From Venturia oleaginea (Eukaryota > Ascomycota > Dothideomycetes > Venturiales > Venturiaceae), in the NCBI GenBank assembly GCA_013176395.1, contig JABMLP010000029.1, positions 186,001 through 250,000 on the forward strand: 64,000 nucleotides of DNA, read 5' to 3'. This document shows, piece after piece, positions 25,020-61,583 of this stretch. Under the pieces are notes generated by a model that did not search any database, was not told where the DNA came from, and saw nothing but the letters and a program-made list of their open reading frames with translations. A program made the translations under genes and the position numbers. How positions within the stretch are numbered: position 1 is the first letter of the stretch; each line of letters starts with the position of its first letter.

Positions 25020-26755
25020 ATGGGAATCCAAAGTTTACCAACAGAAATCGAAGGCAAGCTCTTCATCAATGGAGAGGTGAGTTGGCTGGCCTTGTGTGCA
25101 GGTTTCCAGGCTAACATAACGTAGTTCATAAAATCATCGGATGGGAAGACTTTCGACGTCTTCTCTCCATATGATCGCAAGAAGGTGGCAACAGGTATTT
25201 GGTTTCGCTCCTTGATGGTTGACATGTTGAGGCTGATCCATGACAGTCTACGAGGCAAACGAAGAAGACACCAACAAGGCGGTCGCAGCGGCCAAGGCAG
25301 CTTTCCCGGGATGGGCAGCTTTGGGCCCTACTGAGCGAGGAGCGTACCTCAAGAAGCTCGCTGATCTAACCGCGGCAGCAAATTCAGACTTCGCGGCTCT
25401 TGATTGCTCAGTCATGGGGAGGCCAATCTCTACTTATGCTGATGCAACCCATTCGGCTGGTCAATTTTCCCACTATGCAGAAGCTGCCTGGCCCAAAGGA
25501 GAGAGCAGTTTGAACTCGCCAGGCTTCCTCAATTTGGTTTTGCGTCAGCCTATTGGAGTTGTGGCAGTGATCATTCCATGGAACATGCCACTCCTTATTT
25601 TAGCTCACAAGCTTGGTATGTCCTTCCAGTCGTGATAATGGATTACCTTAGCTGACAGCACTCAGCCCCTGCACTTGCTGCTGGCTGTACCGTAGTTGTC
25701 AAGAGTAGCGAGAAGGCTCCGCTTTCGGTAATAGCAACATCTTGAACCATTTCATTACTCGAGCTAACAGGGTTAAGTCACTCAAACTTGGGCAACTTGT
25801 CAAGGAGGCTGGGTTCCCTCCTGGTGTGGTCAATTTTATTTCTGGATATGGACAACCGTCAGGATCAACACTCTCTGCACATATGGATGTCAGACTCATC
25901 AACTTCACTGGCTCAGCAGCAACAGGAAAGCTTATCACCACGGCGGCGGCGAAATCAAACCTAAAGAGGGTTATCCTTGAACTGGGCGGCAAATCGCCTA
26001 CGATCATTTTCGACGATGCAGACCTCGAGAAAGCAGCTATTGAGACTGCCTTTAGCATGCAATTCCTTTCCGGTCAAGCCTGCGTTGCCAACTCTCGCAT
26101 TTACGTCCAGGAAACCTGCGCTGACAAATTCAAACAGCTGTTCGCCCAAGCATTTACTGCCATCCATCCTGGCGATCCCATGGACCCAGCGACCACGCAT
26201 GGTCCCCAAGCTGATGAGGCGCAATTCAAGAGAGTCCAGGAATACCTGAAGCTTGCCAAGGAGGGCACAGGGAAGATTGAGGCTGGTGGGAACGCGATCA
26301 AACTTGAAGGTGGGAATGGATTCTTCGTCGAGCCTACGATTGTTACGGGACAGGCGGAAGATTCTCGCCCTATGAAGGATGAAATCTTCGGCCCGATCGT
26401 CGCTATCAATGTCTTTAAGACGGAGAAGGAGGCCATTGCCAAAGCCGTCGATTCCGAATTCGGGTTACACTCTGCTGTTTACAGCAAGAACATTGATCGC
26501 GCTTTAAGAGTTGCCAAGTCCATGGAAGCGGGTCAGGGTAAGTGCATCCCCATCATCTATCCGTGCAAAGCGAAGCGTTCTCCCTCGTGTCTAACCAGAG
26601 ATATAGTTGGCATCAATTGTACGAGTCCGAATGGGGCTGCGGATGGAGCCTTTGGCGGTTATAAGCAATCTGGGCAGGGGCGTGAAGGTTTTGGGTACAG
26701 TTTGGAGAATTACCTTGAGCATAAGTTGGTGCTTATTAAGCTGGAAGAGGAGTGA
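25020..26755 (+). CDS. NAD(P)-dependent aldehyde dehydrogenase
   Basis: Six exons (25020-25076, 25125-25194, 25247-25615, 25666-25727, 25778-26537, 26607-26755) give 488 aa, the usual ALDH length. All five introns are 48-69 bp with GT-AG ends, and phases agree. Features in order: VIIPWNMPL (the oxyanion Asn is in the WN), a Rossmann segment with PALAAGCTVVVKSSEKAPLS, KEAGFPPGVVNFISG, the catalytic base Glu in LELGGKSP, the nucleophile Cys in SGQACVANSR, KDEIFGPIV and, at the end, FGGYKQSGQGRE. The enzyme oxidises an aldehyde to its acid; the substrate cannot be told. The last intron is a multiple of three and free of stops, so retention would add about 23 residues. The gene looks intact. Confidence 0.95.
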
Positions 26756-27096: not shown

Positions 27097-27178
27097 ACGT
27101 GGGTGGTTTAGTGGTAAAATCCGTGCTTGCCATCGTTGCTATCTACACGGGCCCCGAGTTCGATTCTCGGTCCACGCA
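27097..27178 (+). tRNA. tRNA-Gly(GCC) with an 11-nt anticodon-loop intron
   Basis: Box A (TGGTTTAGTGG) and box B (GTTCGATTC) are intact, the T stem is CCGAG/CTCGG, and the acceptor strand TCCACGC is followed by discriminator A. Anticodon GCC is at 27129-27131, with an intron at about 27133-27143, the canonical position after nucleotide 37. Two weaknesses are visible: an A1.C72 mismatch at the end of the acceptor stem and a C31.A39 mismatch in the anticodon stem. It may be a functional gene with a weakened stem or a decaying copy. It is the best local reference for the second tRNA-Gly, with which it shares the whole D arm. Gly identity is inferred from the D arm and anticodon. Confidence 0.75.
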
Positions 27179-27640: not shown

Positions 27641-27780
27641 GCGCTGGTGGTTTAGTGGTGTCAGTTTATCCATCTGTCCTGTTTGAATACTTGAATACTA
27701 ATATACGTGTAGAAAATCCGTGCTTGCCATACGTGTATCGTGAGTTGCACGGGCCCCGCGTTCGATTCGCGGTCAGCGCA
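27641..27780 (+). tRNA. tRNA-Gly(GCC) with an anticodon-loop intron and a 53-nt D-loop insertion
   Basis: The cloverleaf is very good once two insertions are removed: acceptor stem GCGCTGG/TCAGCGC (six Watson-Crick pairs plus one G.T), discriminator A at 27780, D stem GTTT/AAAT, anticodon stem CGTGC/GCACG, anticodon GCC at 27726-27728, T stem CCGCG/CGCGG. One insertion is the normal anticodon-loop intron (about 27730-27745, 16 nt). The other, 27660-27712, splits the D loop just after box A (27648-27658) and is listed separately. Box B is at 27760-27768 and a T6 terminator follows. Because both promoter boxes and all stems are intact, the gene looks better preserved than its neighbour. Whether it makes a usable tRNA depends on removal of the D-loop insertion. 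Confidence 0.85.
27660..27712 (+). other. Spliceosomal-intron-like insertion inside a tRNA gene
   Basis: The 53-nt segment begins GTCAGT and ends GTGTAG. It holds TACTAAT at 27696-27702, with the presumed branch A 11 nt from the 3' end, the geometry of introns in neighbouring protein genes. Deleting it exactly joins AGTGGT to AAAAT and restores the D-loop sequence of the tRNA-Gly at 27097. It is not a duplication of flanking tRNA sequence. These facts are visible directly; that it is spliced, and by the spliceosome, is inference. Confidence 0.8.
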
Positions 27781-27782
27781 AG

Positions 27783-27788
27783 TTTTTT
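27783..27788 (+). terminator. RNA polymerase III T6 terminator
   Basis: Six T residues start three bases after the discriminator base of the second tRNA-Gly, the expected position and length for Pol III termination. Confidence 0.8.
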
Positions 27789-56933: not shown

Positions 56934-59900
56934 ATGTCATCTTCCTTCAGCTTCAAGCTTGACCCCAACTCGCTGCCCAAGCTTTCTGCCCGCGGCGATA
57001 ACTACACAGAATGGCGCTCCGCGTAGACTGTCGCACTCAGGTACGCTGGCCTCTGGCCGATCGTGTCTGGCAAGAAGACAAAGCCCGCCGCCGTCGCTGG
57101 GACTGGCGCAGAAGCTCGCGAGGAGCTCATCGACAAGTGGGACGCCGACGACAACAAGGCCATGGTCATGCTGCTCTCGTCGGTACACAACGACCTCACG
57201 ATGTCCATCGCGTCGTGCGACACGTCACCCGAGGCCTGGAAACACCTCGGCAGCCGATTCGACCGCGATACCGGCAACGCGTCCATCACCCTCTTCCGGT
57301 CGCTCACAAACCTTCGCTACGCGGATGGAGACGACCTCAGACTACACCTGGACGAGTTCCATCAGCGATGGACTCGCATGGCAAAGCGATGCGCTGGCTC
57401 TTCACAGAGCGTCGCAAAAGCCATGAAGGCAATGTTTGAATCGGATGAGGTCAAGGGCTTATTCTTCCTGGCTACCCTACCAGATACTATGGACCACGTC
57501 ATCGACAACCTCAGCTCTCGTGACGTTACCAAGTTTGTCGACATCGAACCCAAGATCCTCGACATCTCCGACAAGCACTCCCTCGACGCTGACTCCTCTA
57601 CCGCGTACGCTGCGAAACAATCCGCCGCGCGCGGCGCCAAACAGAACCAAGGTGGCGCACGCGGAACGCGTCCGGCTACTAATACTACCGAATGCTCCTG
57701 GTGCCGCAAGCACAACATGACGTTCATTGGGCACGCCTACACGAACTGTAACGAGCTCAAGAAACACAAGGAGCAACAGCAGCGCAAAGGCAACGGCGCG
57801 CCAAAGGAGACGAAGAATGGCGCAAAACGTCAAAAGGCGAACAACGCGAACGCCGCTGAATCATCAGACGATGAGGACGACGAGGACAGCGCAACTGAGG
57901 TGGTGAGCTTCATAGCACATTACCGCGCCACCAACGCCACTGCCGGCGCAACCATTGACCTGACTGGATCACCACCGCAGTCGACGCGGACCACGATGAT
58001 CAACGTAAACGGCAAGCAATCACGCGAAACTATAAGTGCTCACGCCGCAATACGTCGGCCCTCAGCAATCGATCCTCCCACAGTATGGCTTCTTGACACT
58101 GGTGCCTCGCGGCACATGACTGGCTGCGCCGATGATTTCGTGTCCTTGTCACCCAAGCAAGGAACGATCACGGTGGCCGGCGGTATCAAGTTACCCATCA
58201 ATGGTGTTGGACTCGTTCGATTACGCTGCAGAATGCCTGACAGATCCACCAAGATCGTCGAACTGACCAACGTCCTCTACAGTAGCGAGCTCTATGGTAC
58301 ACGGCTCTTCTCCTGGAGTTATGTCCGTCACCATCACAACCTCGAATTGCACGGCAAAGCAAACGACATCTTCCTCACGCGCAACGGCGCCACGGTACTG
58401 TGGGCACGGCACGCGGACGGCGTTGTACAAATCCAAACTAAAACGAAACCCACAGCGCACGTTGCCTCGACCGAATCACACGCGCCAACTAACCGAGACC
58501 TGACGCGCAAATCGTCACTACACAAAACCGAGACCGCACCTGCTGCAACCGTCAGCGCACCATCTTGGCCAACACTGGCGCAGAAGACTGCATGCTTCTC
58601 ATCGTATACGGAGTTTCATCACTCAGTCGGTCATCTTCACGTCCCAAACCCTGCAAGGATATACAATGATGGGCACCTGGTACCGGCGAAACCTCATGAC
58701 TTCCACTGCGACATGTGCTCCCTCAGCAAGTCCAAGCGACAGCGGCCTGCGCCATCCCCACCAGTACTGGCGCGCACCATCAAGCCGCTCGAAGTCATAC
58801 ACTCAGACTTGTCAGGGAAGTTTCCTCGCCCAAGCCTTGGAGGCGCACGTTACTTCATATCCTTCATCTGCCAAGCAACTCGCTACTCCTGGATCAAGCT
58901 TCTTAAGCTGAAGTCTGATGGCCCCCAGGCGATCCGCGAATTCATCGCCTTCGCAAATACTCAACACAACGCTCAGATGAGTACTGCGAACATCCACATA
59001 CACAGCTCTACGGTAAAACGCTTCAAGTCTGACAACGGCGGCGAATACCGCGCCGCTGCCCAGGACCTTCGGCGCATGGGCATACAACATGACATGGTCC
59101 CACCTTACCATCATGAGCTCAATGGCGTCGCAGAACGGTGGAATCAGTCCATCATTCAGATCGCTCGATCAATGATCCCTACTGACAGTCAGCTGTTCCT
59201 TTGGGGTGAGGCTGTGCAGACAGCCAATTTCCTCAAGAACATATCCCCTCACGCTGCTGACAAACTGGGTCGTACGCCGCATGAATTACTCATTGGCGCG
59301 AAACCATCCATCAAGCATCTGCACCCATTCGGCTCCAAAATCTTCGCTCACATACCTGTAGAAGCTCGCAAGCCTGGCTCCAAGCTCTTGCATAGAGCGG
59401 AGGAAGGCATCTTCGTTGGGTATGGGCGCAACACCAAAACTGCGAGGGTCTACATCCCATCGCGTCATGTCATCATGGAAACTCGCAACCTGCGCTTTGA
59501 GCCTTTCTCAAGGTCTCAGACTGCGCCGTATTTCCAACCTGTGGCGGAGAATGAGATACCAGCTGCTGAACCAGTCTCTACATCTCCAAGACGGCCTCAA
59601 AACAAAGATCGTCGGCCGTCGGGGGACACTTTTGCCACACCTCCTACATCACCAACGTGGTCCACGACGACAGCGTACACCCCATCCCGGCTTGAAGCTG
59701 GGGTACCTTTGGACCACTCGTACGATCAGCCTGCGCCAACGCCTGTGCAGCCCAGCGCAGAAAATGGACAACACACGCGCTCCGCTCCACCCACCTCTGC
59801 ACCCGGCGCTGGAGCAAGAGGAACTCGAAGGGAGACGCGACCGTCACAGGACCTGTCTGATCCAGTCGAGCTCCGACGCTCCAAACGAGTTGCTAAGCCT

Positions 59901-61583
59901 TCACGCAAAGCCGCAGACAACGCTGAAGCGTCATTGGCTTTGGAAGACATGCTTGCGCCAGATGATGAGAACATGGCGCACGCTGTGGCTTGCGTCACCA
60001 AGGCAGACATCGACCACGAGATACCTCGCACGTTCAATGAAGCTGTCAACGCCACTAACTCCCCTTTGTGGGTTACACCGATCAACAAAGAAATCCAAGC
60101 ACATCGTGACAATGGCACATGGGTGATGGAACACAATCCTCCGCCAAACCTCAAGCTCGTTGGCACACGCTGGGTCTTTGACATCAAGCGCGACGAGCAT
60201 GGAAAGGTCGTCAAGCGCAAAGCCCGCCTGGTGGCACAAGGCTTCTCACAACGTCCTGGGGTGGATTTTGACGACACATATTCCCCAGTGGTGCGCTACG
60301 ACAGTCTGCGTCTCATCATCGCTATCGCTTCGTGGCGACAATGGATCATGCACCAAGTGGACTTTGACGCCGCCTACCTCAATGGACGACTGCAACACGC
60401 CATATACGCCAAAGTCCCGCCAGGAGTACCCTCTCACGGCGCAACAGTGATCCGTATTGTTCGCGCTTTGTATGGGCTCAAGCAATCAGGCCGCGAATGG
60501 TATGCTCTACTGTCTCAATGGCTTGTTGGTCAGGGCTTCACACAGGCCAGCTTTGATCCATGCGTCTTCATCTCAGATGATCTCATTCTTGGAATCTACG
60601 TAGATGACGTCCTGATGGCCGGCACGCCCAAGGCAATCAGCGCCATGCTCGATGCCACCCGCGCAAGGTTCAAATTCAGAGACATGGGTCGACCACGTCT
60701 GCTCCTCGGTCTTGAAATTGACCATCACGCGGACCACGTCAAGCTGCACCAACGTACTTACATCGCAGCGATATTGCGGCGCTACGGCATGGATGATTGT
60801 AATGGGCGCCACACACCGCTTGACCCTAACTCGTTCCCACCAAGGTCAACCGACTCAGTGGACCTTGATCGCCAGAAACTGTATCAATCCATCATCGGCT
60901 CGATCAACTTCCTTGCCATCGTCAGTCGCCCAGACCTGTCCTACACGGTCAGCATGCTGGGTTCATACAACTCCAACCCATCAGACCTGCATCTGAAGAT
61001 GGCTTACCAGACTCTACGTTACATTCAAGCCACCCGAGCTGTTGAACTTGACGTACGATCTCCTGCGCCGTCTGATCGCTCTGCAGCGCGGACCGCGTCC
61101 ATTCCTACGCTCGTCATGTTCTCAGATGCGTCTTTCGGGTCTGACCCAGACAACTCCAAGTCCTTCTCTGGTTACCTCATGAAGGTCGGTGGATCGACAG
61201 TCTCATGGTCTTCAAAGCGTCAGTCATGCGTGGCAAGGAGCACTTGTGAAGCCGAGTACATGGCATCATCCCACGCCGCCAGCCACCTCGTGTGGTCGCG
61301 CCAGGCCATCAAGGAGCTTATGGGTCACGCCAAGTACCCCAACTGTTGGCTCATGGTTGACAACGAGCCCGCCCTGTCGCTCATCAAGGACCACAGGATC
61401 AGCAATCGTTCTAAACATATCAACGTTCACTACCACTTCGTCCGGGAGCGATTCGTCCTGGGTGACTACGCCATCGAGCATGTCTGCTCCGCTGACAACC
61501 TCGCCGACATTGGTACTAAATCACTACCACGACCCCTCCTGGATAACCTCCGAGGCCGTATTTGTGCAACTACTGCGCCATGA
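56934..61583 (+). pseudogene. Copia gag-pol polyprotein with an amber at codon 31
   Basis: One frame of 1549 codons from ATG 56934. Gag begins SFSFKLDPNSLPKLSARGDN, then YTEWRSA followed by TAG (57024-57026), where Copia Gags have Trp (W-x-x-A-W). The next in-frame ATG is 57162, so the N-terminus would be lost. A variant zinc knuckle (CSWC...H.Y.NC) follows. Protease: LLDTGASRHM (about residue 388). Integrase: HHSVGHLH with CDMC, then the catalytic HSD, SDNGGEY and NGVAERWNQ. Reverse transcriptase: RWVFDIKRDEHG, KARLVAQGF, HQVDFDAAYLNG and YVDDVLMAG (about 1222). RNase H: FSDASFGSD, CEAEYMA, HINVHYHFVRE. Everything but the amber is intact, so one point change may have disabled an otherwise complete copy, which could still be mobilised in trans. 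Confidence 0.9.

Follow-up and report, generated by a model that had tools for sequence, protein, structure and literature searches.

Introduction

Introns of nuclear tRNA genes, as usually described, occupy a single position and are removed by a protein endonuclease. For the introns of U6 snRNA genes, the usual proposal of origin is reverse splicing. Nuclear 18S rRNA is a Pol I transcript.

The spliceosomal introns of fungal U6 snRNA genes are known from the work of Tani and Ohshima (1989) and Canzler et al. (2016), both cited in PMC5832005. The excerpt of this 2017 paper names U3 and U6 as the only small structured RNAs so far known to be often interrupted by introns and describes normal spliceosomal introns in fungal U3 snoRNA genes. 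Introns of the mRNA type are also reported from fungal nuclear 18S rDNA (Rogers et al. 1993, cited in an excerpt of PMC11782384). In Cyanidioschyzon merolae the disrupted tRNAs are tied to bulge-helix-bulge motifs (excerpts of PMC9602550 and PMC3978253), and the noncanonical intron search of tRNAscan-SE 2.0 is described, in the excerpt of PMC8450103, for archaeal tRNAs. No spliceosomal intron in a tRNA gene was named in the open-access PubMed Central titles and abstract openings listed, a collection outside which most subscription papers and bioRxiv preprints lie; the first-pass annotation likewise gave no mRNA-type intron known in a fungal tRNA.

Results and Discussion

The window is a stretch of 64,000 nucleotides of Venturia oleaginea DNA (G000:C22:186001-250000) from a genome of 46.08 Mb in 61 contigs. 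A Copia-type retrotransposon open reading frame is found at 57027-61583 of the window. The tRNA-Gly(GCC) gene considered here and its neighbour have the following features (window coordinates; L002 is a second interrupted gene, described below).

27641..27780, plus strand: tRNA-Gly(GCC) gene with two introns; exon 1 27641-27659, exon 2 27713-27729, exon 3 27746-27780 (sequence, ARAGORN, stem pairing)
27648..27658, plus strand: box A (TGGTTTAGTGG), starting at G000:C22:213648 and ending one base before the D-loop intron (sequence)
27660..27712, plus strand: spliceosome-type intron, 53 nt, in the D loop between nucleotides 20 and 21 (unique register, GT..AG, CTAAT branch site)
27660..27665, plus strand: 5' splice site GTCAGT (sequence; GTCAGTT identical in L002)
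27696..27702, plus strand: branch site TACTAAT, branch A at 27701, 11 nt from the 3' end
27730..27745, plus strand: canonical anticodon intron, 16 nt, after nucleotide 37 (ARAGORN)
27760..27768, plus strand: box B (GTTCGATTC) (sequence)
27783..27788, plus strand: Pol III terminator T6 (sequence)
27097..27178, plus strand: neighbouring tRNA-Gly(GCC) gene without D-loop intron, the comparison copy (ARAGORN, Rfam; stem mismatches)

The D-loop insert runs from GTCAGT through TACTAAT to GTGTAG and reads as first annotated, with its donor, its branch site and its length of 53 nt. The register is unique, and no shift yields the same mature tRNA. Removal of the insert restores the D loop of the neighbouring gene at 27097-27178, as had been claimed, and equally that of two further tRNA-Gly genes, L033 and L036. 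The description of an otherwise intact host (acceptor stem, boxes A and B, anticodon intron, T6) is borne out by the sequence and by ARAGORN. The acceptor stem GCGCTGG/TCAGCGC and the T stem CCGCG/CGCGG are fully paired with one G-U, and the gene has what a working tRNA gene is expected to have: a cloverleaf after splicing, box A, box B and a T run. With the 53 nt left out, ARAGORN reports tRNA-Gly(gcc) with a 16-nt anticodon intron; for the unspliced gene, with long introns allowed, it reports tRNA-Asp. Default ARAGORN and Rfam runs on the window report only the 27097 gene and miss 27641-27780, which suggests that fungal tRNA counts may be incomplete.

The second interrupted tRNA-Gly(GCC) gene, L002 (C60:1432872), carries a different 53-nt insert, GTCAGTT...TAG, at the identical site 20/21. 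The pattern that found it described exons only, namely the two halves of the D loop with 30-60 nt between them, and its reversed-pattern control gave 0 matches. The exons of L002 are identical to those of L033. Four genes carry the flanking exon letters of the window gene free of any insert: L033 and L036 appear sound, and 27097-27178 and L034 have stem mismatches. Because the neighbour at 27097-27178 shows A1.C72 and a mismatch at 31-39, L033 and L036 serve better as references. These two mismatched genes without the D-loop insert are perhaps pseudogenes. That four insert-free genes share the flanking letters, and that L002 has at this site a dissimilar insert of like form, goes beyond chance. 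The window gene and L002 differ by three double changes, which keep pairing at 4-69, 5-68 and 52-62.

An introner-like origin had also been put forward. The 53-nt sequence occurs nowhere else in the genome at up to three mismatches, and this claim is not supported for the window copy: being single-copy, the insert is no recent introner. An introner family of many near-identical genome copies was therefore rejected for it.

It is useful to compare the insert with introns of a protein gene nearby. Upstream of the insert lies an aldehyde dehydrogenase gene (25709-26755, Pfam Aldedh), whose best named relatives are from Venturia effusa (76% identity) and V. inaequalis (74%); by this one protein the host probably belongs to the Venturiales or stands close to them. 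Its introns were placed by hand from a protein alignment to P0001-P0003.

25077..25124, plus strand: GTGAGT..GCTAAC..TAG, 48 nt
25195..25246, plus strand: GTATTT..GCTGAT..CAG, 52 nt
25616..25665, plus strand: GTATGT..GCTGAC..CAG, 50 nt
25728..25770, plus strand: GTAATA..GCTAAC..AG, 43 nt, the 3' end less sure
26538..26606, plus strand: GTAAGT..TCTAAC..TAG, 69 nt

The donor and branch style of these five introns is the same as that of the tRNA inserts, and their lengths of 43-69 nt agree with the statement that the window insert resembles the introns of neighbouring protein genes in size.

That nuclear tRNA genes hold a class of spliceosome-type introns is confirmed at the level of sequence, and the class is wider than first noted. 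At least 14 GT-AG inserts, a lower bound, were found in 13 tRNA genes on 12 contigs, in seven isoacceptors: Gly-GCC (two genes), Arg-TCT (two), Arg-CCG, Ser-AGA (three), Ser-GCT (three), Gly-CCC and Leu-TAG. They are located at 18/19 (one), 20/21 (two), 29/30 (one), 52/53 (seven), 53/54 (two) and 57/58 (one). Insert lengths of 51-69 nt, with one of 89 nt, are comparable with those of the five aldehyde dehydrogenase introns. Besides the two Gly-GCC genes the set comprises:

L053, C6:460996-461118: Arg-TCT, T-stem insert (Rfam)
L054, G000:C20:557227, plus strand: Ser-AGA, T-stem insert (Rfam)
L059: Ser-AGA, T-stem insert (Rfam)
L056: Ser-GCT, T-stem insert (Rfam)
L060: Gly-CCC, T-stem insert (Rfam)
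L061: Arg-CCG, 69-nt insert GTAGGA..GCTGAC..TAG at 18/19 in the D loop (Rfam match, re-read)
L063, G000:C5:1338680-1338944, minus strand: Ser-GCT-like, 60-nt insert GTATGC..TCTGAT..TAG at 57/58 in the T loop (Rfam, re-read)
L092, G000:C20:147039, plus strand: Arg-TCT, interrupted (search with Arg-TCT exons)
L107: Leu-TAG, T-stem insert (pattern in which CTAAY and AG precede box B)
L103, G000:C15:899953, minus strand: Ser-GCT, inserts in the T stem and in the anticodon stem at 29/30 (same pattern)
L110: Ser-AGA with weak stems, T-stem insert (same pattern)

L103 thus contains two spliceosome-type introns within one tRNA gene. The insert of L054 has CAGGT on both flanks, which is the consensus of the splice sites or else a short repeat of the target site.

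The Rfam tRNA model gave at least 62 matches, with 63 of 1697 candidates scored and the window's own genes absent from the list. Fifteen of the 62 are on contig C38, taken as the mitochondrion, and the other 47 were read. Five of these 47 nuclear matches (L053, L054, L059, L056 and L060) are over-long, the T stem being split by a GT-AG insert. L061 and L063 had been set aside as degenerate copies, a reading that was dropped: leaving out the insert yields tRNA-Ser(GCT) from L063, and L061, falsely called Glu, becomes tRNA-Arg(CCG) once the 69 nt are removed. The expected tRNA was likewise obtained from the first seven genes tested and from L092. L057 and L058 are degenerate-looking and insert-free. 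The locus L062 (G000:C45:1546990-1547285) shows a tRNA-Arg(TCG)-like 5' part, anticodon arm and start of the T stem, and a matching acceptor strand was not found nearby. The remaining nuclear matches are ordinary by ARAGORN's calls, with or without anticodon introns.

Pattern searches were read against reversed-pattern controls. A generic D-loop pattern gave 9 matches (control 12), of which the two Gly genes alone are tRNA-like on reading. CTAAY before AG-GTTC gave 20 (control 22), and seven of these are tRNA genes whose T stem holds an insert (L100, L102, L103, L105, L106, L107 and L110); the rest are an ordinary tRNA-Gln (L097), a match on the probable mitochondrial contig (L111) and eleven that are not tRNA-like. 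Since the raw count is not above the control, it is the tRNA context alone that sets the seven genes apart. No acceptable T-stem intron was found with CTGAY before AG-GTTC (17 matches, control 18), and none of the matches to CTAAY before AG-TTC (6, control 13) is a tRNA on reading. L121 (G000:C13:552011, minus strand), a match to CTGAY before AG-GTTC, is tRNA-like but has a long insert by its anticodon and a single mismatch in the T stem; it was judged unsafe and not counted. Among viral contigs 25 loci matched, all of them phage-type tRNAs or chance hits when read, and another pattern gave 0; a pattern search of further genome contigs gave 0 matches.

The recurrence of the inserts bears on the reading that they are an artefact of assembly or annotation. 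One assembly only was available, which would allow it. However, such inserts are seen in 13 tRNA genes, spread over 12 contigs, where a GT-AG cut restores the tRNA, and also in two U6 genes. With 12 tRNA genes besides that of the window showing GT-AG among the tRNA-restoring cuts, an artefact is hardly credible.

The U6 genes are the second group of interrupted RNAs here. Nine U6 matches were found in the genome, seven of them over the cut-off. Two of the seven contain GT-AG introns:

L142, G000:C12:1178071-1178280 (1-210): U6, intron GTAAGT..CACTAACCATTGTAACAG after CAGAGAA
L143, G000:C36:59821-60036 (1-216): U6, intron GTAAGT..TTCTAACTTCATTCACAG after AGCATG

These introns differ from each other, and both are within the conserved U6 core. 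The others over the cut-off are four of approximately full length (one of which, L145, was read) and a short one (L144). The earlier mention of spliceosomal introns in fungal U6 is thus matched both by the literature cited in the PMC5832005 excerpt and by the present genome. A single process, for example reverse splicing into Pol III RNAs, could be behind the U6 and the tRNA introns.

The splice-signal statistics were made on ten inserts found without a splice-signal pattern, that is, by Rfam, by exon patterns or in the window itself: W (the window gene), L002, L053, L092, L054, L059, L056, L060, L061 and L063. The reading of these inserts was guided by an expectation of GT-AG, especially for L061 and L063. 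L103, L107 and L110 were found by a pattern requiring CTAAY and AG, so they lend no support to those signals. An admissible GT-AG register exists in all ten inserts; treated as independent, the ten have a nominal chance of about 7e-21 of doing so, and one gene from each of five families a chance of about 1e-10. From 1 to 6 registers are admissible per insert: W and L002 have a unique one and the others 2 to 6, one of them being GT-AG. CTRAY occurs in nine of ten, placing the branch A 6-25 nt before the end, against 1.82 expected from dinucleotide shuffles (P 5e-7); for the first eight inserts alone the count is seven against 1.28. TACTAAY is present in 3/10 (0.09 expected), and G at +5 in 9/10. 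L002 has neither CTRAY nor YTRAY within reach of its 3' end.

In an ARAGORN scan of all cuts of 30-100 nt in ten genes, the GT-AG cut scored best or tied in six (W, L002, L053, L092, L059 and L107). It was outscored by 2 cuts in L056, 43 in L060, 70 in L054 and 76 in L110. In W and L002 it ties with 29 and 27 other cuts, respectively, and the edge there is settled by the paralogs only; in L054, identity with the intronless gene L015 leaves six possible registers for the edge, and one of these is GT-AG. By the marks of a U2-type intron, the inserts have GT..AG with a U1-like donor, a branch site at 6-25 nt (absent in L002) and host-like length.

The possibility should be considered that these are ectopic introns cut by tRNA endonuclease at a bulge-helix-bulge, as in C. 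merolae. The first-pass annotation had pointed to ectopic tRNA introns in a red alga, and the excerpt of PMC9602550 indeed places C. merolae introns in both the D arm and the T arm, there at 53/54. The Guillardia theta nucleomorph is reported to have ectopic introns that lack a defined motif (excerpt of PMC3978253), which also favours this possibility. The motif, taken as a 4-bp central helix between two 3-nt bulges, was sought in nine inserts (W, L002, L053, L054, L056, L059, L060, L061 and L063). The first seven inserts form 1, 1, 0, 1, 0, 1 and 3 of the four central pairs, the 3 belonging to L060, and L061 and L063 form 1 each. The central helix is therefore absent in eight of nine, with 0-1 pairs, against 3, 4, 4 and 4 in the anticodon introns of four tRNA-Gly genes; one Gln anticodon intron of uncertain edges forms 2. 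In the window gene itself the D-loop insert has 1/4 pairs and the anticodon intron 4/4, which answers the check proposed in the annotation. The sites (18/19, 20/21, 29/30, 52/53, 53/54 and 57/58) also do not follow the position 37/38 rule, and cutting by endonuclease would leave GT-AG, G at +5 and the branch sites unexplained. This explanation is very unlikely.

The splice signals, the lack of a bulge-helix-bulge and the 14 such inserts in the genome support the original reading of an mRNA-type intron. The window insert is very probably a U2-type spliceosomal intron in a Pol III-transcribed nuclear tRNA gene, one of at least 14. Against this stand L002 without CTRAY or YTRAY and L060 with 3/4 bulge-helix-bulge pairs. 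The inserts of L061 and L063 speak for the spliceosomal reading, the broken box B of L063 slightly against it. That the tRNA inserts are spliced out by the spliceosome we infer with high confidence.

The location of the inserts relative to the internal promoter is a regular feature. The boxes are readable in 13 of 14 cases (by reading), the insert adjoining box A, falling between the two boxes or ending immediately ahead of box B; the exception is L063, where it is inside box B. The 20/21 inserts begin one base past box A, and in L061 the first intron G completes box A. The inserts at 52/53 and 53/54 end directly before box B, and the AG of the intron gives the opening G of this box. Such promoter-sparing placement is the pattern that selection on insertion sites would be expected to give.

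The condition of the interrupted genes is important for a further alternative, in which they are dead copies: intron-like DNA would sit in spare, silent tRNA genes, and no tRNA would be spliced. Four of the seven isoacceptors (Gly-GCC, Ser-AGA, Ser-GCT and Leu-TAG) also have intronless copies, and their interrupted genes could thus be dispensable. Damage is seen in three genes: the stems of L110 are weak, position 33 of L092 is A (U33A), and L063 has a T-stem mismatch in addition to the insert breaking box B. L063 is perhaps silent and L092 possibly decaying. However, the stems are kept on both sides of the introns, with pair-keeping changes. Where the insert is at 52/53 or 53/54 (nine genes), the split T stem pairs at 44 of 45 positions, and the stem sequences differ. 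L107 and its intronless sister L146 have different T stems, both paired. L054 without its insert equals the intronless Ser-AGA gene L015 across the whole tRNA, and the anticodon arm of L103 without its insert is identical to that of L020. The sister introns of L053 and L092 share 6/6 donor and 3/3 end letters, while their interiors are no better than shuffles (245 of 300 as good); the contrast is weaker for the W and L002 pair, where 12 of 300 shuffles were as good.

The case of tRNA-Arg(TCT) speaks against dispensability. Among the interrupted isoacceptors without a known intronless sister, a search for copies at up to three mismatches was made for this one, and both nuclear genes found (L053 and L092) are interrupted; Arg-CCT and Thr-TGT, with two genes each, account for the four remaining matches. 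A more distant third gene, or one lost in an assembly gap, is conceivable. The probable mitochondrial contig C38 carries its own Arg-TCT gene. AGA codons occur four times in each of three long reading frames of the window, one of which runs through an intron. In view of A33 in L092, the sound source of this tRNA may be the C6 gene alone. The dead-copy explanation is unlikely.

These features allow us to propose how the window gene with a spliceosomal D-loop intron would be expressed. Pol III would read it from the intact internal boxes to the T run. The spliceosome would recognise GTCAGT, TACTAAT and TAG, and the 53 nt would leave as a lariat. The D-loop halves would be joined and the cloverleaf would be able to form, and the tRNA splicing endonuclease and ligase would excise the 16-nt anticodon intron, as its bulge-helix-bulge suggests. 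The gains might tentatively be pictured as having come, probably one by one, when excised introns reverse-spliced into Pol III transcripts and then returned to the genome.

With mRNA-type introns in many tRNA genes, the mRNA splicing machine probably helps to make tRNAs. Going further, we consider the following likely as a joint reading of the genome sequence. The spliceosome would be a regular enzyme of tRNA maturation, and four precursors (the window gene, L002, L060 and L107) would need both it and the tRNA endonuclease. Nuclear decoding of AGA by tRNA-Arg(UCU) would rest wholly on spliceosomal splicing. Gains would be continuing, mostly at sites that spare boxes A and B. If the inserts are spliced, the spliceosome works routinely on short, uncapped Pol III RNAs besides U6. 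The interrupted tRNA genes and their empty sisters would also form a natural catalogue of intron gains, which bears on the origin of introns.

Comparison with known systems

The ectopic tRNA introns of C. merolae, as described in the PMC9602550 excerpt, resemble the present inserts in lying outside 37/38 of nuclear tRNAs, beside an anticodon intron, with the D arm and 53/54 among their sites. They differ in their tie to bulge-helix-bulge motifs: in the present genome eight of nine tested inserts lack the helix, and splice and branch sites are present. The introns of fungal 18S rDNA (excerpt of PMC11782384) are likewise of spliceosomal type in a non-coding structural RNA, but their host is rRNA, neither a Pol III RNA nor a tRNA. 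The fungal U3 introns (excerpt of PMC5832005) are spliceosomal and interrupt a small structured RNA, although U3 is not a tRNA. The fungal U6 introns are similar as mRNA-type introns in a fungal Pol III transcript, and two of them occur in the present genome. However, the introns of tRNA, the host here, are normally left to another enzyme; most sites adjoin the internal Pol III boxes, and seven isoacceptors are involved.
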